From a virus, in IMG/VR virus record IMGVR_UViG_3300047176_000016, positions 1 through 38,816 of that record: DNA of 38,816 nt; one strand, given 5' to 3'. A program made the position numbers and the translations under genes. This document shows positions 1,343 to 36,535 of the stretch, in pieces. A model generated the notes under the pieces. That model was not told where the DNA came from, did not search any database, and saw nothing but the letters and a program-made list of their open reading frames with translations. The number at the start of each line of letters is the position of its first letter. Position 1 is the first letter of the stretch.

Positions 1343-3052
1343 ATGTCAATTACGACAACAGGCAATTTAGGGCCAATGATTTTGCAATCGTTAGCTCCTG
1401 CTATGCTGTATGTGCCTACGCCAACCATGAATTATATTACGGTTTGCGACAAGGTCTCCATGCCAGCAAACGGGGGAACTACTTGCAGATTTATGCGCCC
1501 AAGAGCTTTACAGCCTCCAACTGTTCAGCTAGGTAATAGTGGTATCGATCCTCCGGCTCAAGTGCCTCAGAGGGATATCATAGACGCACAAATGGCGTTC
1601 TTCGGTCGATATGCCAGTGCCGAAGACTCATTCGATTATGTGTATAGACTGGCTGCATAATCAACGAGCAAGTGATATTACAAGACCAGGAAGGAGTTCT
1701 GGCTTGGGTATCTGAAAGACTTGCCGTAGCAATGAGACAGGCTTGAAAATATTAAGTAGGCCTGTATAAACCTCTTCTAAATAACTGGGAACTCTTGTAT
1801 ACTTTATACGGAACCGTATAGGAGTGATATGCAAGACAATCAGAGGGAAGAGTTATCGTATTTAGCCGGATTGTTCGATGGTGAAGGAACAATCTGCATA
1901 CAGAAGGATTCGAGACCATTATCCAAAGATAATGGTCGGAACTGGAACCCAATCTATAACATTACGTTTAGAGTTGGGATGATAGAGGAAAAGGCTATCA
2001 AAGGTTTTAAAGAGTTCTTTAAGGTAGGATTCATAGACTGCGAAAAAGTCTATCTTAAATTTAGACCGATGTGGAGATATTCCATAAGGGCTAAAGATGA
2101 TGCAAGAATGGTAATTGAGAAAATATTACCTTTCTTAAGGGTGAAAAAGCCACAAGCTGAATTAGCTCTAAGATATTTCGTAGATTGTCCTTCTCAAAGA
2201 GGACAGTATTTGACTCCAGAAGTGTTGGCAAAGAAAGAGCAATACTACCTTGAGATGAGAAGACTAAATGGAGTAGATAACTCACCCGCAACGACTAAAC
2301 GAAGGGGACGCCCACCTAGTGTGCGCGTATGCGATAGTCTGAACTCATAGGTGACTATGAGAGGGAGATCCGAAGAGGTTTCCCCGCTCACAATATAACG
2401 TGAGTCATAAAGTAACAGATTGGAAGATTTAATCCTCCGCGATTATATCGTATCCTCAGCGTCAGAAATAAACGCTGGTGGTGGAAGTAATGGTTTTAAT
2501 CCAACTAACCTTGGATTAACAGACTTTAGTTTAGTAGCTACGACTCTTGATACTAATAACGCTTATAAGTTCATGAGCGGTATTGAAGGTATGGACAGAT
2601 TCGGAACAGGCCCAGTCAGATCAGCCTATTTCATGCTGTCCTCGACTGAGTTACAGTCCGACTTTGATGCGTTGGGATCAGCTGGGGGTATTTCATTTAT
2701 ATCCCAGTGGAATTATCCAACAAATGCCTCTGCTCTTCCTTCTGAGTATGGCTCTGTAGCCAACATTAGGATTTTGACAAGTTCTGAGGCTCCAGTAGCT
2801 AGAAATGCCGTGGCTAATGCTTCTGGTACCCTTAACGATCTGTATTACAATACAGTGTTAGGTAAGCAAGCTATCACGCACATAAATCAAGATGGTTATT
2901 CCATGAATTTGATTTACCGTGATCCTTATTATTCTGGAATGCTTGCGCAAAACGCAACTTTGGCGGTTAAATTCGCCCAAGCTCAAGCGTTAACGCAAGA
3001 TACAGCTATCCGTCAACTCTTAAGCACTCGCTTAAGCAATTTGGGGGTGTAA
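1343..3052 (+). CDS. Major capsid protein, interrupted gene (3 coding segments)
   Basis: HK97-fold major capsid protein of the N4-gp56/P22-coat-like group. The coding segments are 1343-1612, 1654-1743 and 2423-3052. Each starts and ends on a codon boundary, and joined they give 329 residues, a normal length for the family. Segment 1 carries the N-terminal motif with NGGTT (residues about 44-48) and ends in AFFGRY. Segment 2 holds INEQVILQDQ, the conserved strand that follows that Tyr in relatives. Segment 3 begins EDLILRDYI and runs to the C-terminus through INQDGYS. Segments 2 and 3 are separated by a group I intron; segments 1 and 2 by a 41-nt insert that breaks the frame. Unprocessed, segment 1 runs on to a stop at 1658-1660. 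The family match is from memory of homologues. Confidence 0.88.
1613..1653 (+). other. 41-nt out-of-frame insert in the capsid gene
   Basis: Between the conserved FGRY and INEQV segments lie 41 extra bases, a length not divisible by three. The insert begins GCCAGT and ends ACTGGC, a perfect 6-bp inverted repeat exactly at both ends, so it can fold into a stem with a 29-nt loop that brings codons TAT (1610) and TGC (1654) together. A second, competing stem pairs GATTATG (1634-1640) with CATAATC (1656-1662). Read straight through, the frame hits TAA at 1658. Removing or skipping exactly 41 nt restores Y-C-I-I-N-E-Q at the family's spacing. Possible natures are a translational bypass element, a mobile mini-insertion, or an assembly error. 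Confidence 0.6.
1744..2422 (+). mobile_element. Group I intron in the major capsid gene
   Basis: A 679-nt intron with recognisable group I parts. At the 5' splice site, exon ACAGGCU pairs with internal guide GGCCUGU at 1759-1765, giving P1 with the required U.G wobble exactly at the splice point after 1743. P7 forms from GACTA (2293-2297, in ACGACTAAAC) and TAGTC (2335-2339, in GATAGTCTG). A P2-like hairpin TATACGG/CCGTATA lies at about 1806-1821. Three-prime hairpins are CTCATAG/CTATGAG (about 2344-2361) and CTCAC/GTGAG. The intron ends in G at 2422, and joining 1743 to 2423 gives the in-frame RQA-EDLIL expected of this coat family. The endonuclease frame runs into the P7 core. Confidence 0.88.
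1829..2350 (+). CDS. Intron-encoded LAGLIDADG homing endonuclease
   Basis: A 173-residue protein with one LAGLIDADG motif, LAGLFDGEG at residues 12-20, followed by the typical beta-strand TICI. A single motif at this length predicts a homodimeric endonuclease that cleaves intron-less capsid alleles and spreads the intron by recombination. Asp17 and Glu19 fall in the motif's acidic positions. The C-terminus is basic (KRRGRPPS), and its last codons overlap the intron's P7 core, so RNA structure and protein share sequence. The ATG follows GGAG at good spacing, so it is probably translated on its own. The spread depends on recombination, and the phage carries RecT and a YqaJ exonuclease. Confidence 0.9.
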   Translation: MQDNQREELSYLAGLFDGEGTICIQKDSRPLSKDNGRNWNPIYNITFRVGMIEEKAIKGFKEFFKVGFIDCEKVYLKFRPMWRYSIRAKDDARMVIEKILPFLRVKKPQAELALRYFVDCPSQRGQYLTPEVLAKKEQYYLEMRRLNGVDNSPATTKRRGRPPSVRVCDSLNS

Positions 3053-11109: not shown

Positions 11110-11802
11110 ATGGTTCAAATAATTGAAGAAAACAAAAAACCCACTTTTTCTAGAATGTTTGGTCAAGCTTTTGCTAATCTAGGACAAACTGTAGGGAAAG
11201 GAGCATCTCAATATTTGCAAGGGAAGCAGGCACAACAAGAGCAGAAAAAGAGAGAAGCACAACTTACCCAACTCACTGGAATGGATGCTCCACCTGAGTT
11301 TCAAGAAGCTATTTTTAAAAACATGCTTCAACAAAAGCTGCAAGAACAAAAATATGGTTTTGAATCTAAATTAGCTGATGAAGCTGGACAAAGAAAACTT
11401 AAGGAATCAGCCGATAAACTAAGGGGAGAAGAAGAGCCTTTAAGAGGCGCTTTAGATGTTGTTGACCGAATGAGAGCAATACGTAAGAAGGGAAATTTAG
11501 GTGTAGGTACAAGTTTTTCTCCATTTCCAGAAACAAGACAGCAAGCAGGAGAATATGAGCAATTAGGAAAATCTCTTATTCAATATGCATCAAACATTCC
11601 TATTAGAAACCAAATAGAATTCCAAACGCTTGCAGAAGAGTTATACGATCCAAGCATTACCGATGCTAGAGCTGAAGGCGTTTTAAATGCTATGGAGAGG
11701 ATCATAAATAATTCTCTCCAAAAATTTGAAAGACAAGAAGGCAGTTCAGAAAAACCATCCGATAAAAAAAATCGACCTCCTTTATCTTCATTCCAGAGGT
11801 AA
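11110..11802 (+). CDS. Probable DNA-ejection protein 2
   Basis: A 230-residue, almost wholly helical and charged protein. Residues about 35-100 are dense in Gln/Lys/Glu (KQAQQEQKKREAQ) and look coiled-coil. A more globular helical stretch follows (YEQLGKSLIQYASNIPIRNQIEFQTLAEELYDP split over about 150-185) and ends in a Pro/Lys-rich tail. It starts 4 nt after the previous gene and ends 1 nt before the next ATG. Lack of enzymatic motifs and position among ejection-type genes support an internal virion protein carried into the host with the DNA. Confidence 0.55.
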   Translation: MVQIIEENKKPTFSRMFGQAFANLGQTVGKGASQYLQGKQAQQEQKKREAQLTQLTGMDAPPEFQEAIFKNMLQQKLQEQKYGFESKLADEAGQRKLKESADKLRGEEEPLRGALDVVDRMRAIRKKGNLGVGTSFSPFPETRQQAGEYEQLGKSLIQYASNIPIRNQIEFQTLAEELYDPSITDARAEGVLNAMERIINNSLQKFERQEGSSEKPSDKKNRPPLSSFQR

Positions 11803-11803
11803 A

Positions 11804-14011
11804 ATGAATAATAATTTTGATTATGAAGGAGCAAAAAAAGCAGGATATAGCGACGAGGAAATAAATTCTTTTATTCAATCCAAAAAGCCAAAACAATCTG
11901 CTTCTGATATAAATCAAAAATTGCTTCGACATAATCCTAAATTTGATGTGCAAGGAGCGATTGATTCAGGTTATTCGCCCACAGAAATCAATGAATATCT
12001 AGAGGAATTTAAACCCAAAAGATCATTAGCGCAAAAAGCCGGAAGATTAGGAACTCAAGCAGCTTTGGGAGCTGCCGAAAATGCTTTATTACCTTATGAG
12101 ATAGGCGTAGCTCCATTGGCCTCTAAAGAAGCTCAAACCGCTCAATATAGGGAAGGAGTCGGCGAAGACATAGAAAGGCTCTTAGAGCAAAAGTCTATGG
12201 GTCTCTGGGATGAACAAGATGAAGCACTATATAAGCATCTCAGCGAACAAATGCAAGATCCTGAAAAATCTTCTGAATATGTTAAGTCCGCTGATATAGG
12301 AATAAGAGGTTTAGCCGAGCAAGCCACGGGTTTAGATCTACATCCTGAAGGCATAGAAGAAAAGGCCGCTAATTGGATTGGATTTATAAAAAATCCTAGC
12401 AAATTAGCTAATCTTGCTAAAACTGGCATTACTGCAAAAGAAGCAATTAAAGCCATCGCTCCTAGCGGAACGGATCTTTTGAGGGGATTAGGAGCTGGAA
12501 CAGCTTTAGAGATGGCGGAACAGGGTAATTTCGGCCCTATAGGAACAATGGCAGCCGTTGTAATAGGTGATGTAGCAGGTGGAGGGGCTTCAGCGTTACT
12601 CAAAGAAGGAACTAAAGCAGTATCTCAACCTAAAAAATATCTAGCTGAATTATCAGCGAAGTTTACTCCAAAGGAAAAGCTTAATCTGCAAAAAGAGATC
12701 ATTGATGATTTTAAAAAATCTGGTTTACAAGCAGATTTAGGAACGCTCACAGATAGCAATTTGATCAAGTGGACACAATCAAGATTAGCTCAATCCGGAC
12801 TCACTGGAAAAGCTCTAGATGAGTTTAGGCATGAATTAACGGATCAAATTAAGAGAGAATATAGGGGATTAGCTGAATCATTAGGAGAAGCTAAATATGC
12901 CACCGCTCACGAAGCCGGAGAAGCTGTAAAAGAAGGAATAAAAACGATCCGTGAAAGTGATCTTAAAGCAACTAGAAATCTTTATGAAAATGCTTCGAAA
13001 GCTCTTAAGGAAAGAACTTTTGTGGACTCCAACAAATTAGCTTCAGTAATAGAAAAATTGGAGAAAAATTTAATTCCTGGGTCTATCAAATCTACAGAAC
13101 AACAAACGGTTCTGAATACTTTGGAAAAACTTAAGAGAGATCTTTATGACTCATCAGGCAAGCTTATGTATGCGGATGTGAAAGAACTCATGAATAATAA
13201 GATCGCTTTGAATGACATTATAAATTATGAAGTGCAGGGCGGCTCTAAACAATTGCTAAAAGAAGTGGTAAAAGAGATTGATAAGGCGATTATTTCTCAT
13301 GGCAAGGAGAATCCAACATTTGCTAAGAATTACATAAATGCCAATAAGAGATTTTCCCAACACGCAAAAACTTTTAGAAGTAGAGAAGTTGAGCAACTTT
13401 TGAGATCGTCCGACCCAGCTCAACTGCTCAATAAAATGAATACCACACACGGCATTAGAACTTTGGATAAAGTACTTTCGAAATCACCTGAAGGCAAAGA
13501 GATTTTCAATAGTCTAAAACGTTTAAAACTTGATAAAGCAATAGGCGATAACCTTGTCGATAGTGCTACACAGCAGGTAAAATTGGGAACTTTTTCAAAA
13601 CTTCTTGAAAAATCCAATAACAAAGAAATATTCAAGGAAATTCTAGGAAAAGAAGGATTTAAGCGTTTAGAAAGATTACAGAAAAATGCTGGAAAATTAG
13701 CTAGTGCAGCAGATAAGTTTTATAATGCTTCAAAATCTGGTGTAGTGGCCGCAGATGCTGCTGTAATGGCAAAAGGTATGAATGATGTAGCCCATGTTCT
13801 GATGGGGAATCCTTGGCCTCTTGCCAAAACTGTTGGAGGTATCATAGCAGCAAGAAAATTGAGCGGTTTGCTAGCAGATCCCGAATTTCTAAAACTAGCG
13901 GAGCAAGCTATAGTCGCCTCAGAAAAAGGCTCTAAACCTGAGTTATTCCAAATATTCGGAAAATTACGACCATATATACTTCCTCTTATGCAGCAAACTA
14001 ACGAGATGTAA
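11804..14011 (+). CDS. Large internal virion / DNA-ejection protein
   Basis: A 735-residue helical protein. The ATG at 11804 follows CAGAGGT; earlier in-frame starts lie inside the previous gene. Two short repeats open it: FDYEGAKKAGYSDEEINSFI and FDVQGAIDSGYSPTEINEYL (residues about 4-70), a small helical repeat seen in ejection proteins and other phage internal proteins. Ala/Gly-rich helices with possible membrane character follow at about 195-265 (GLGAGTALEMAEQG, then AAVVIGDVAGGGASALL). Long amphipathic helices run through to residue 650, and a hydrophobic segment occupies about 665-690. I see no lytic transglycosylase motif. It probably forms the trans-envelope conduit for DNA. Confidence 0.62.
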   Translation: MNNNFDYEGAKKAGYSDEEINSFIQSKKPKQSASDINQKLLRHNPKFDVQGAIDSGYSPTEINEYLEEFKPKRSLAQKAGRLGTQAALGAAENALLPYEIGVAPLASKEAQTAQYREGVGEDIERLLEQKSMGLWDEQDEALYKHLSEQMQDPEKSSEYVKSADIGIRGLAEQATGLDLHPEGIEEKAANWIGFIKNPSKLANLAKTGITAKEAIKAIAPSGTDLLRGLGAGTALEMAEQGNFGPIGTMAAVVIGDVAGGGASALLKEGTKAVSQPKKYLAELSAKFTPKEKLNLQKEIIDDFKKSGLQADLGTLTDSNLIKWTQSRLAQSGLTGKALDEFRHELTDQIKREYRGLAESLGEAKYATAHEAGEAVKEGIKTIRESDLKATRNLYENASKALKERTFVDSNKLASVIEKLEKNLIPGSIKSTEQQTVLNTLEKLKRDLYDSSGKLMYADVKELMNNKIALNDIINYEVQGGSKQLLKEVVKEIDKAIISHGKENPTFAKNYINANKRFSQHAKTFRSREVEQLLRSSDPAQLLNKMNTTHGIRTLDKVLSKSPEGKEIFNSLKRLKLDKAIGDNLVDSATQQVKLGTFSKLLEKSNNKEIFKEILGKEGFKRLERLQKNAGKLASAADKFYNASKSGVVAADAAVMAKGMNDVAHVLMGNPWPLAKTVGGIIAARKLSGLLADPEFLKLAEQAIVASEKGSKPELFQIFGKLRPYILPLMQQTNEM

Positions 14012-32466: not shown

Positions 32467-33756
32467 ATGCAAGAACCTTTCTCCTCAAAGCAATTAGAAT
32501 TTATTATTAACAGTGTTAAGCCTTGGAATCTGGCTCATGGTTCTGTATCAACTGGTAAAACCGTTTGTAGTACCTTTAGATTCATGCAAGCAGTAGATGA
32601 GTGCCCTGACAATGATATAGCAATGATTGGTAAAGCTTCTGCAACGCTTTATAATAACATCATTACCCTTATCTTCGAATCTCCGCAACTAAGCATATTT
32701 AGGCCTTTCTGTACGTGGTTTCCAAGTGATAGGACACTAAGATACAAAGATAAGAGAATAACAACGTACGGAGCAAAAGATGAAGGTTCTACACAGCTTA
32801 TTCAAGGAAGAACCCTTTCTTTAGCCTATTGTGATGAAATGACGCTATTTCCTATTTCATTTATTAATATGTTGGACTCTCGCCTTAGGAAAGAGCATAG
32901 TATGGGATTTGGAGCTATGAACCCCGCTTATCCTGACCATCTTATAAAGAAATGGATTGATAAGGGTGAAGAAGGAGATCCAAATTATTATTCACTTCAC
33001 TTTACTTTGCCTGATAATCCTTACCTGACGGAAACCTATAAAAACCGTATTAAGAATAGTTTGTCTGGACTATTTTATAAGCGTAATTACCTAGGGCTAT
33101 GGTGTTTAGCCGAAGGAGCTATCTTTGATTTCTTTGATCGCAACATACATGTTGTTGAAAGGGCTCCATCGGCTGCCGAATACTTCATTGCCGGTATTGA
33201 TTACGGGACTAGCAACGCTTTTGCTTGTGTATTATTGGGTGTCTCAACGGGAAAGTACACACAAACAGGAAAAAGGCTCTGGGTTGAAAAAGAATACTAC
33301 TGGGACTCAAAACGAGAAGGACGGCAAAAAGTAAACTCTGAATATGCTAATGAAGTCGCTGAATTCCTAGAGCCCTATGGTGTAAAGCATCTTTATATCG
33401 ATCCAAGTGCAGCCGCTTTTAAGCTAGAGTTACAAAGAAGAGGAATTCGTCCAATAGATGCTAATAATGATGTTGAAAATGGAATTCAAATGATGTGTAG
33501 TGAGATGCAGAAGGGATCTCTTTATGTAATTAAAACCTGTCCTAATTTAATTAGAGAGATAGAGAGCTATGTTTGGGATTCTAAAGCCGCAGAAAGAGGA
33601 TGGGATCAACCGTTAAAGAAGAATGACCATGCAGTTGATGCTTTACGGTATTGTATTGCGAGTCACAAAGTGTCTGTATATAATCCATATCCAGAAAACA
33701 CAAGAAATGATCAATATTTAGGTAATAGATTTAATCCAGGTACTAGAAGGTTTTGA
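32467..33756 (+). CDS. terL: Large terminase subunit
   Basis: A 429-residue packaging motor of the PBSX/XtmB-like group. The ATPase domain has Walker A GSVSTGKT (residues 25-32), Walker B LSLAYCDEM (about 118-126) and a coupling segment AMNPAYPDH (about 155-163). The RNase H-like nuclease has IDYGTSNAF (about 243-251), LYIDPSAAA (about 315-323) and DHAVDALRY (about 392-400), with the three acidic metal ligands. It cuts and pumps concatemeric DNA through the portal. Its stop overlaps the next ATG (TGATG). The subgroup suggests headful or cos packaging; this cannot be decided here. Confidence 0.95.
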   Translation: MQEPFSSKQLEFIINSVKPWNLAHGSVSTGKTVCSTFRFMQAVDECPDNDIAMIGKASATLYNNIITLIFESPQLSIFRPFCTWFPSDRTLRYKDKRITTYGAKDEGSTQLIQGRTLSLAYCDEMTLFPISFINMLDSRLRKEHSMGFGAMNPAYPDHLIKKWIDKGEEGDPNYYSLHFTLPDNPYLTETYKNRIKNSLSGLFYKRNYLGLWCLAEGAIFDFFDRNIHVVERAPSAAEYFIAGIDYGTSNAFACVLLGVSTGKYTQTGKRLWVEKEYYWDSKREGRQKVNSEYANEVAEFLEPYGVKHLYIDPSAAAFKLELQRRGIRPIDANNDVENGIQMMCSEMQKGSLYVIKTCPNLIREIESYVWDSKAAERGWDQPLKKNDHAVDALRYCIASHKVSVYNPYPENTRNDQYLGNRFNPGTRRF

Positions 33757-34085
33757 TGCCGCGTAAAAAGAAAGATAACCCCGAAATGCTTCCCGCAATC
33801 AATCATAAAAAAAGAGAGCAAAACTTTGAAGAGATCACAACATTTATGCCTGTTATGCAATTAGGTATTAAAAATCCTAAGTTTATATTGGAAAAAGGGC
33901 AATACAACCGCGCATATATTATAAATCTTCTTAGAACACTGCTAGATCAAATACATTCTATGCGTTTTTCACCTAAAGATTTACAAATCACGCTTCAACA
34001 TAGCATTCAAAAGCTCCTAGTCGATATCGAAATGGAGGACTTTAAGACGAGTGGCGTTAAACATGATCCGGATACTATAAAATGA
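33756..34085 (+). CDS. Hypothetical protein between terminase and portal
   Basis: A 109-residue basic protein starting at ATG 33756, overlapping the terminase stop; an in-frame TTG one codon earlier is less likely. It reads PRKKKDNPEMLPAINHKKRE, then FMPVMQLGIKNPKFILEKGQ, and helices (AYIINLLRTLLDQIHSMRFS, ITLQHSIQKLLVDIEM). It ends 4 nt into the next gene's start. No family is recognised; position suggests a packaging or portal accessory protein. Confidence 0.55.
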   Translation: MPRKKKDNPEMLPAINHKKREQNFEEITTFMPVMQLGIKNPKFILEKGQYNRAYIINLLRTLLDQIHSMRFSPKDLQITLQHSIQKLLVDIEMEDFKTSGVKHDPDTIK

Positions 34086-34351
34086 TTAGCAATTCACCAC
34101 AAACATGGCAGGAAATGATGCATTCTTTTGAAAATAATTTAATTTTGGATAAAAATTTGAGAGATCTCCCTTTTTCTTGCAGGGTTTCCAATGTTCTTGA
34201 TGCCACTAATTTGAAAACGGTAAGAAATTTGGTTTCTAAAACTCCTTCCGAGTTAATGGAATATAGAAATCTAGGTAAACAGGCATTGAAAGAAATTATC
34301 GTATTTTTGGCACAATATGGACTGTCATTGAAGGGTGACTCATTGCCATAA
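34082..34351 (+). CDS. Stand-alone RNA polymerase alpha-CTD-like protein
   Basis: An 89-residue protein whose residues about 24-84 match the C-terminal domain of bacterial RNA polymerase alpha. LRDLPFSCRVSNVLDATNL (26-44) aligns with the E. coli segment containing R265 and N268 (here Arg34 and Asn37). LVSKTPSELMEYRNLGKQAL (50-69) aligns with the N-L-G-K-K-S loop: Gly65 equals G296 and Glu71 equals E302, while K298 and S299 are replaced by Gln67 and Ala68. The domain binds UP-element DNA and activators in the host enzyme. Here it has no alpha N-terminal domain. A host-polymerase mimic or competitor is likely. It overlaps the upstream gene by 4 nt. Confidence 0.85.
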   Translation: MISNSPQTWQEMMHSFENNLILDKNLRDLPFSCRVSNVLDATNLKTVRNLVSKTPSELMEYRNLGKQALKEIIVFLAQYGLSLKGDSLP

Positions 34352-34369
34352 TTAAAATTTTAATATACA

Positions 34370-36535
34370 TTGGCCTCAAATCAACATTTCTATCGAAATG
34401 GAGGCTCTTTGTCTTTATATTACCCGCCCTGGAATAATTCTCTAGAACCTAATCAAGGTAATGTTAGGCAATGGCTTGACAATCTGTATAGCAAATTCCA
34501 GCCCATTGAGCAAAGCCGTTGGAACCAAAGCAACATTGATACTCTTTTCTATGCGGGTGCCCAACAATTCGTAAATCGTTATTTCAATTTTAATCCTACT
34601 TCAGCTTCTCAAAATTATTACTTCAATTTGATTCAACAACCCGTAAACATGATCACGGGAAGAGAAAGACAGCATCGAAAAAACTTTTCTTATATTGCTT
34701 GTGAGGGTGCAGATCCCCTAACTACAGATCAATACACTAAACTTATAACTCACGTTGCTAATAGAGGGTGTATCCATGAGCAAAAGAGTAAGGCTAAAGA
34801 GCTTTCTGCCATAGCTGGAATGTGTCTCATGCAGCCTTATCTTGATTACATGGGTGATGATGCGGCACAAGGTGATTTAAAGGTTAAGATTTGGGAGTAT
34901 AATTCGTTTCTCGTTGATCCTTATTTCCGCTCTCCTGACATGAATGATGCACAATTTGTTTGGTGTCAAGAGTATATAAGCAAGAAAGAAGCAGAATCTC
35001 GTTTTCCCGACAAATTGCAACAAATTGGTCCTATGTCTGGAACGCCTCAAAGATACGGAAGCTTCTATTTCTTACCTGAAAATTACAATATGGCAAGAAA
35101 TGACCTAATGGTCCTTTCTTATGTGTGGTATAAATGGAAACGAAAGAAACGACGGTTATATAGCCGAACTCGTAATCAATTTTTTGATTTTGCAGCCGAT
35201 GAAGAGAATTTGGAAGAGATTTTATACAATATACCCGACATGGAAGAGGTAACAGTTGAAACGCCGACTTGGAAACTTGCTGTTGTTCTTAATGATCAGC
35301 TTATGTTTCAGGGTGATAACCCTCTTGGGTTTGATCAATGTCCTTTTATTCCTTATTTTTGGAACTACGAACCACACATTAACTACTATGATCTACGCGT
35401 TCGTAGTCTTGTGCGCACTATGCGAGACCCTCAGTTTCTTTTTAATTATAAAGTCATTACTAATAATGACATTGCAGCAGCCACCATTAATGCGGGATGG
35501 AAAAGGAAAATCGGAGCGGTAGCTAACGAGGACAATCTTAAGAAATCTGGCCAAGGCTGGGATGTAATCATCAATGATGGCTATGAAATGACAGACGTTG
35601 AGAAGATTATTCCTAGCGCTGTTCCTGAGTCTGATTTGGCTTTAGCACAACAAATGGCTGACCTGATTTATCAAACATCAGGCATTAATATGGAAAACTG
35701 GTCTGGTCAGCAAGATAAGCAGATTTCTAGCCTTACTATGCTTTTAAAACAAGATGCTAACTTAATGGTATTTCAGAAGTATTTTGACCAATGGGATTTT
35801 TCGGATAAACTTCTAGGAGAAAGGCTTTTACAGGTTGCATTGAACAACTGGAATGCTGAAAAAGTCAAATTGTACATAGGTGAAGATCCAACCCCGTTCT
35901 TTTATAGCAAGATTTTCTCTAAATTCCAAACAATAGTAGAAGAAAGTGATCTTACCCCTACACAACAGAATCTTCAAGCGCAACAAATGATGGATATGAA
36001 TCAAGCTTTTGGCAGGGAAGTTTTTCCACCATCTATGATTATTCCTAAACTAAATATCACTGGTAAAGGCGAAATCATACCTTATCTACAACAGCAAGAG
36101 CAACAAATGCAAGCCACTCAATCTGAAGAGATGAATCTTAAACATACCGTTGAAGAAATGAAGATTAAAGAGCTTATGGGTAAGATACATAATCAGCTTT
36201 CTCAAGCACGCGAGAGAGATTCTAGATCCGAATCTAATGTAGGTCTATTCGAAGAAAGAATGAGTATGATATCTAAGAATCACGCTCTTGCTTCTAAAGA
36301 GAAGATGGCAGCATTAGCACAATTATTAGAGACTATACAGAAATTCGGTGAAGTAGAGACATTTCTTAAATCTAATGAACTTGATTCTATTAAATATGAT
36401 GAAGAAGAGAATGAAAAGAATTCACGACAAATGGTAGAAAGAAATGAAGCATCAAAAAGATTTATTGAGCAAATTATGGGTAGTCAACAAAGTCAAAATC
36501 AGCAACAATCGGGCCAAATGGCCCAAATGAGGTAA
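34370..36535 (+). CDS. Portal protein, P22-like
   Basis: A 721-residue portal subunit, the size of P22 gp1. The start is TTG at 34370, without a strong ribosome site; no better start fits before WNNSLEPN. Visible family segments are FNLIQQPVNMITGRERQHRK (residues about 80-99), an acidic stem region around 240-330 with PFIPYFWNYEPH (about 318-329), and the long helix SLVRTMRDPQFLFNYKVITN (about 342-361). Then comes VIPSAVPESDL-like IIPSAVPESDL, and SGINMENWSGQQDKQISSLT (about 440-459). The C-terminal 120 residues are Gln/Glu-rich coiled coil, as in portal barrels. It forms the dodecameric ring at the head vertex. Confidence 0.9.
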   Translation: MASNQHFYRNGGSLSLYYPPWNNSLEPNQGNVRQWLDNLYSKFQPIEQSRWNQSNIDTLFYAGAQQFVNRYFNFNPTSASQNYYFNLIQQPVNMITGRERQHRKNFSYIACEGADPLTTDQYTKLITHVANRGCIHEQKSKAKELSAIAGMCLMQPYLDYMGDDAAQGDLKVKIWEYNSFLVDPYFRSPDMNDAQFVWCQEYISKKEAESRFPDKLQQIGPMSGTPQRYGSFYFLPENYNMARNDLMVLSYVWYKWKRKKRRLYSRTRNQFFDFAADEENLEEILYNIPDMEEVTVETPTWKLAVVLNDQLMFQGDNPLGFDQCPFIPYFWNYEPHINYYDLRVRSLVRTMRDPQFLFNYKVITNNDIAAATINAGWKRKIGAVANEDNLKKSGQGWDVIINDGYEMTDVEKIIPSAVPESDLALAQQMADLIYQTSGINMENWSGQQDKQISSLTMLLKQDANLMVFQKYFDQWDFSDKLLGERLLQVALNNWNAEKVKLYIGEDPTPFFYSKIFSKFQTIVEESDLTPTQQNLQAQQMMDMNQAFGREVFPPSMIIPKLNITGKGEIIPYLQQQEQQMQATQSEEMNLKHTVEEMKIKELMGKIHNQLSQARERDSRSESNVGLFEERMSMISKNHALASKEKMAALAQLLETIQKFGEVETFLKSNELDSIKYDEEENEKNSRQMVERNEASKRFIEQIMGSQQSQNQQQSGQMAQMR

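Follow-up and report, generated by a model that had tools for sequence, protein, structure and literature searches.

The C-terminal domain of the bacterial RNA polymerase alpha subunit RpoA (alpha-CTD; PF03118) reads the UP element, and sigma region 4 reads the -35 element. In E. coli, the two domains touch via D259/E261 of the alpha-CTD and R603 of sigma (PMC5511352; PMC2613000). T4 Alt, ModA and AsiA and LUZ19 Rac place the host polymerase under phage control at the alpha-CTD or sigma region 4 by modifying, cutting or covering the host domains. The phage described here may exert control at the same point, but it encodes a copy of the domain. Late regulators RinA and Ltr of Gram-positive phages are small proteins encoded beside the terminase genes, and they switch on packaging genes (PMC13123087). 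The gene described here also adjoins packaging genes; however, RinA and Ltr lie upstream of TerS, whereas this gene lies downstream of TerL, and the likeness shown is one of position.

Small alpha-CTD proteins like this one are encoded by isolate phages. These include gp5 of Bacillus phage vB_BmeM-Goe8 (YP_009849950.1, annotated 'RNA polymerase subunit alpha'; alpha-CTD match 4.3e-22), gp26 of Microbacterium phage Mazun (1.7e-13), gp57 of Mycobacterium phage Mithril (6.3e-6), and ORF40 of Erythrobacter phage vB_EliS-L02, which is annotated as an alpha-CTD protein (PMC9127768). Those checked differ from the present protein in their longer N-terminal part and in their neighbours, and they are known as annotations or hypothetical proteins. 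A literature search, with most subscription papers outside its scope, found annotations of phage alpha-CTD proteins and no functional study.

The window is the whole stretch of DNA that was analyzed, a complete IMG/VR virus record of 38,816 bases. Its alpha-CTD gene lies between the terminase and the portal, as a preliminary description of this DNA had stated; that description missed an additional 110-aa ORF (ORF110) in the same interval. The features of the region, including an insertion absent from L082, the nearest relative found, are the following.

32467..33756, + strand: terminase large subunit TerL, left edge of the slot (PF03237, PF17289, phrog_2)
33756..34085, + strand: ORF110, 110 aa, function unassigned (homologues in L082, L075, L081/L095)
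34073..34341, + strand: insertion relative to L082, approximately the alpha-CTD gene (blastn; 269 bp here against 15 bp in L082)
34082..34351, + strand: predicted stand-alone alpha-CTD gene, 89 aa (ATG-start ORF; PF03118 E 1.4e-14)
34139..34312, + strand: alpha-CTD domain proper (PF03118 profile positions 9-66 of 67)
34370..36535, + strand: P22-like portal, right edge of the slot (PF16510 3.9e-51; phrog_156)

The product of ORF 34082-34351 (+), MISNSPQTWQEMMHSFENNLILDKNLRDLPFSCRVSNVLDATNLKTVRNLVSKTPSELMEYRNLGKQALKEIIVFLAQYGLSLKGDSLP, matches PF03118 RNA_pol_A_CTD over residues 20-77 with 54 bits, above the curated cut-off of 23.8 bits, and gives the only PF03118 match in the whole window. About 20 residues precede the domain. 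NCBIfam rpoA models align only via their last ~70 positions, and the N-terminal assembly domain of a full alpha subunit is absent. In a phmmer search of PDB sequences, nearly all matches are bacterial RpoA alpha-CTDs (best 5.5e-9), and in profile ranking RNA_pol_A_CTD stands far above the general helix-hairpin-helix (HhH) families. Identity to other aligned alpha-CTDs is 28-38%, and no close homologue was found among viral contigs. Judged by these matches, the protein is a true stand-alone alpha-CTD and not a generic HhH protein, and the profile search bears out the identification made in the preliminary description.

The 89-aa protein has the RpoA DNA-contact residues R265, N268, N294, G296 and E302 (E. 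coli numbering), with K298 replaced by Gln and S299 by Ala; R265, N268, G296, E302, Q298 and A299 had been read correctly before. Within the 261 face, D259 is kept and E261 is Pro. The 287 face retains T285 and E288 but has Pro for E286 and Ser for V287. The protein is thus of the same family as the RpoA domain and differs from RpoA in standing alone, in residues 298 and 299, and in the changed 261 determinant and part of the 287 determinant. The retained T285 and E288 could serve an activator sponge, a protein that captures host or phage activators whose usual partner is the alpha-CTD, but the substitutions at 286, 287 and 261, and the drift of these faces across phage alpha-CTDs, make such a role very unlikely. 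The earlier proposal that the protein competes for activators is not upheld, given the poor conservation of the 287-type and 261-type faces.

The same contrast between faces is seen in other phages. Viral contigs were scanned with alpha-CTD alignments, and loci were classified by a profile built in this analysis, which gave 70 distinct phage alpha-CTD proteins, among them those of four isolate phages, the window, L077 and L213. The column that varies least is R265 (69 of 70), with L270 next; E302 is kept in 65, N294 and N268 in 62 each and G296 in 61, against 10 for V287 and 24 for E261. These counts are partly biased in that some loci were found by patterns containing some of the counted residues, and R265, E302, N294, N268 and G296 are well conserved in RpoA too. 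The domains of the window, L077 and L025 were not found via the domain, and they keep R265, N268, G296 and E302, as does L213, which was found with L077. The conserved face of phage alpha-CTDs appears from these residues to be the DNA face.

Three groups of matches were rejected. Gut 'Bacteriophage sp.' records H6-H8 carry ordinary bacterial rpoA operons, and most INPHARED matches likewise look like bacterial rpoA contamination. Of the plasmid matches, those that carry a feature name are RpoA by annotation, and the others have no listed gene at that place.

At both junctions stop and start overlap: TGATG holds the TerL stop and the ORF110 start, and ATGA holds the ORF110 stop and the start of the alpha-CTD gene. 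Because of these overlaps, translation of the three genes is probably coupled, as a single unit. ORF110 has no match in Pfam or NCBIfam, and it was ruled out as the missing N-terminal module of a split gene (hhalign 0.1% to the N-module of the sigma4/alpha-CTD slot proteins described below). A promoter and terminator scan of the alpha-CTD region gave no signal above chance, and no structured RNA matched Rfam at gathering cut-offs. Elsewhere in the window, a LAGLIDADG-type ORF (1829-2350) seems to interrupt a capsid-like gene (1343-3052), of which one part lies at 1343-1660 and the other at 2420-3052; the counterpart of this gene in L077 is a single 347-aa ORF (11114-12154). The split, where Rfam likewise gave no match, is probably due to a mobile element such as an intron.

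Scanning for the portal and the terminase yielded some 150 related loci. Among 95 distinct TerL-portal pairs from related phages, the interval ranges from 8 to 5082 bp (median 805) and is shorter than 100 bp in 16. Because of this range, and because terminase and portal can directly adjoin, the interval is a hypervariable cargo (accessory) slot. Relatives' slots also hold endonucleases, DUF551-like genes and other unrelated genes. The preliminary description had taken the gene's place in a packaging operon as a sign that it could act late or be carried in the virion. The gene does stand beside packaging genes, but a gene in a cargo slot cannot be timed from its place alone, which weakens that reading, and none of the findings relates to virion carriage.

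The order TerL - ORF110 - alpha-CTD - portal, with its overlapping stops and starts, could suit a plain HhH DNA binder used in packaging or head assembly, for instance one that helps terminase find its site. The protein's weak similarity in PHROG (E 0.04) to a PmgS-like head protein points the same way, as do alpha-CTD genes near packaging genes in unrelated phages, namely upstream of TerS/TerL in L175 and after an Sf6-type TerS in L180, and upstream of a weakly portal-like ORF in L185. A packaging role is nonetheless improbable: the 16 short intervals mark the place as accessory, most related phages have no alpha-CTD, RNA_pol_A_CTD outranks the general HhH families, and sigma region 4 stands in the domain's place in relatives.

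L082, with a TerL 84% and a portal 90% identical to those of the window, has ORF110 and lacks the alpha-CTD gene. The DNA flanking the insertion aligns with L082 at about 76% and 83% identity, and relative to L082 the gene is a clean single-gene insertion of ~0.27 kb. About 97 related virus records searched whole contain no PF03118 match over the cut-off. The alpha-CTD is not needed by the phage family, because the window copy alone among ~98 records exceeds the Pfam cut-off; an 80-aa slot ORF in L025/L026 is a possible, sub-threshold alpha-CTD (0.0021). The clean insertion, the unrelated genes in relatives' slots and the lack of a close homologue would fit accessory cargo with some other benefit, such as a block on competing phages or on a host defence, or a gene captured recently and with little effect. 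Either is quite improbable, as R265, N268, G296 and E302 persist at 28-38% identity, unlike in a decaying capture. No host is assignable from portal relatives, whose genome-contig matches are spread over MAGs of three unrelated phyla.

Slot proteins of ~220 aa in relatives have a common N-module (LExHIINLIIPIQ ... PLxIDD ... EIKYIGKRLxxIE). In about seven lineages, the N-module is joined to sigma-70 region 4. PF04545 is over its cut-off in L030/L031/L032/L162 (one lineage), L111, L007, L096, L076 and L165; the L040 slot protein is just over the cut-off in a whole-record search, and the L138 match is weaker. L111 has all the -35 contact residues (R584/E585/R588/Q589), and others of the sigma4 slot proteins have part of them. 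In L077 and L213, whose slot proteins are 46% identical, the same N-module in the same slot ends in a diverged alpha-CTD-derived domain, which hhalign matches to the alpha-CTD with 96.4% probability (E 1.1e-9; below the single-sequence Pfam cut-off) and which has R265, N268, G296, K298 and E302. The slot therefore appears to be filled, depending on the phage, by one or the other of the polymerase domains for reading the upstream promoter half. This family shares with the window the TerL-portal interval and an upstream-promoter-reading polymerase module, but its long N-module is lacking in the 89-aa protein.

Other arrangements occur in the same slot family. The N-module stands alone, at about 132 aa and without a C-terminal DNA-binding domain, in L109:7552-7947 and L110:4788-5192. 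In L022:5264-5956, it is followed by a LuxR-like HTH (GerE, E 0.0039, sub-threshold), a possible third exchange. A 57-aa ORF in the TerL-portal slot (L037:5772-5942; also L085/L086) retains only the final stretch of sigma region 4 (KAIRKLRHPSR...) and is apparently a worn-down copy of a sigma4 slot protein. Weak Sigma70_r4 matches in the L078, L118, L132 and L008 records were rejected as endonuclease tails or general HTH proteins, and a 119-aa ORF in the L155 record (L200) was set aside as a doubtful HhH match.

Sigma region 4 is also found in the same polypeptide in 19 of the 70 phage alpha-CTD proteins, nearly always in the order sigma4 then alpha-CTD, and the alpha N-terminal domain is matched by none of the 70. 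Clear fusions are encoded by L246 (211 aa), L243 (227 aa) and L245, whose 304-aa protein has an HTH in addition. The L176-L179 group encodes a separate HTH-sigma4 protein and an alpha-CTD protein in the same genome. The L176/L177 alpha-CTD genes, a close pair with dN/dS = 0.16 over 131 codons, are under purifying selection. The L176 domain is 63.5% identical to that of Salmonella RpoA, against 28-38% for the window copy, which suggests several separate captures of the alpha-CTD by phages. A phage origin of the alpha-CTD contigs is supported by matches to a single terminase family in at least 15 of 50, with 12 above its cut-off.

Three further domain arrangements were observed. ORF34 of Morganella phage Mecenats66 (L216:1117-1680) has a NinX domain (PF10765) followed by an alpha-CTD-like domain. 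Phage proteins of 454-725 aa with a common N-terminal part carry the alpha-CTD mid-protein (L253:3284-5116, L255:3527-4888, L261:3164-5338 and L265:3062-4915). A 303-aa protein (L271:3599-4507) has an alpha-CTD and then an apparent sigma4-like HTH, the reverse of the usual order.

A promoter-directed role is the best reading of the window gene, because the DNA face is kept, sigma region 4 replaces the domain in relatives, and the fusions join both. The evidence, which is that of sequence comparison, favours a promoter-DNA-binding factor over an activator sponge or a packaging protein, and there is about an even chance that the gene encodes a phage transcription factor, a single alpha-CTD acting on promoters via UP-like DNA. 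Such a protein would bind A/T-rich (UP-like) DNA through its retained 265 determinant and would help, place or re-direct host RNA polymerase at promoters, in all likelihood those of the phage itself, with activation as the likelier effect over repression. Alpha-CTD genes near packaging genes in the unrelated phages L175, L180 and L185, the purifying selection in L176/L177 and the precedent of late regulators such as RinA and Ltr beside terminase genes also count for this reading. It agrees with the transcription role proposed for the gene in the preliminary description, to which the sigma4 swap and the fusions lend weight, and not with its activator competition. Counted against a transcription factor are the changes at K298 and S299, the Pro at position 261, where the E. 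coli residue touches sigma R603, the chance-level promoter scan of the region, and the lone occurrence of the window copy among ~98 records.

The main rival is a decoy, in which a free alpha-CTD would occupy UP elements of strong host promoters, such as those of rRNA, and would shut host transcription without aiding phage promoters. A single alpha-CTD binds DNA weakly, which counts against a decoy, and the window gene sits behind the terminase and not among early genes. In favour of a decoy, the 89-aa protein keeps its DNA-binding face and lacks the N-terminal domain by which it could join core polymerase. Goe8 gp5 lies at one genome end with a second copy at the other, a place often used by early takeover genes, and phages are known to hit the same interaction by other means: T4 Alt/ModA modify Arg265 (PMC2988021), and Rac cuts off the alpha-CTD (PMC7552054). 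A decoy leaves the exchange with, and fusion to, sigma region 4 unexplained and is unlikely overall. Both the promoter-directed role and the decoy are more likely than packaging use, some unrelated benefit as cargo, or an activator sponge.

The promoter-directed reading can be extended tentatively to other phages. Tailed phages may widely build promoter-reading factors from captured sigma-70 region 4 and alpha-CTD modules, with the window gene as the minimal one-domain form, a proposal given somewhat less than an even chance. Phages would borrow sigma region 4 (-35) and the alpha-CTD (UP) and use them alone, on an adaptor, or fused; single, swapped or fused, these modules would re-aim host polymerase at the -35/UP region without a full sigma factor. 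Isolate annotations of phage alpha-CTD proteins already exist, and the swap and fusions are the more surprising part. The literature search, with subscription papers mostly outside its scope, found no paper on the sigma4/alpha-CTD swap or fusions, nor one naming both Pfam families.

An alpha-CTD that occurs alone, on an adaptor, or fused to sigma region 4 points to a little-studied steering of host polymerase. Domain copies supplied by the phage would amount to mimicry of the upstream half of promoter recognition, and a promoter-reading role would give a likely function to dozens of small phage proteins, most of which carry no functional name.
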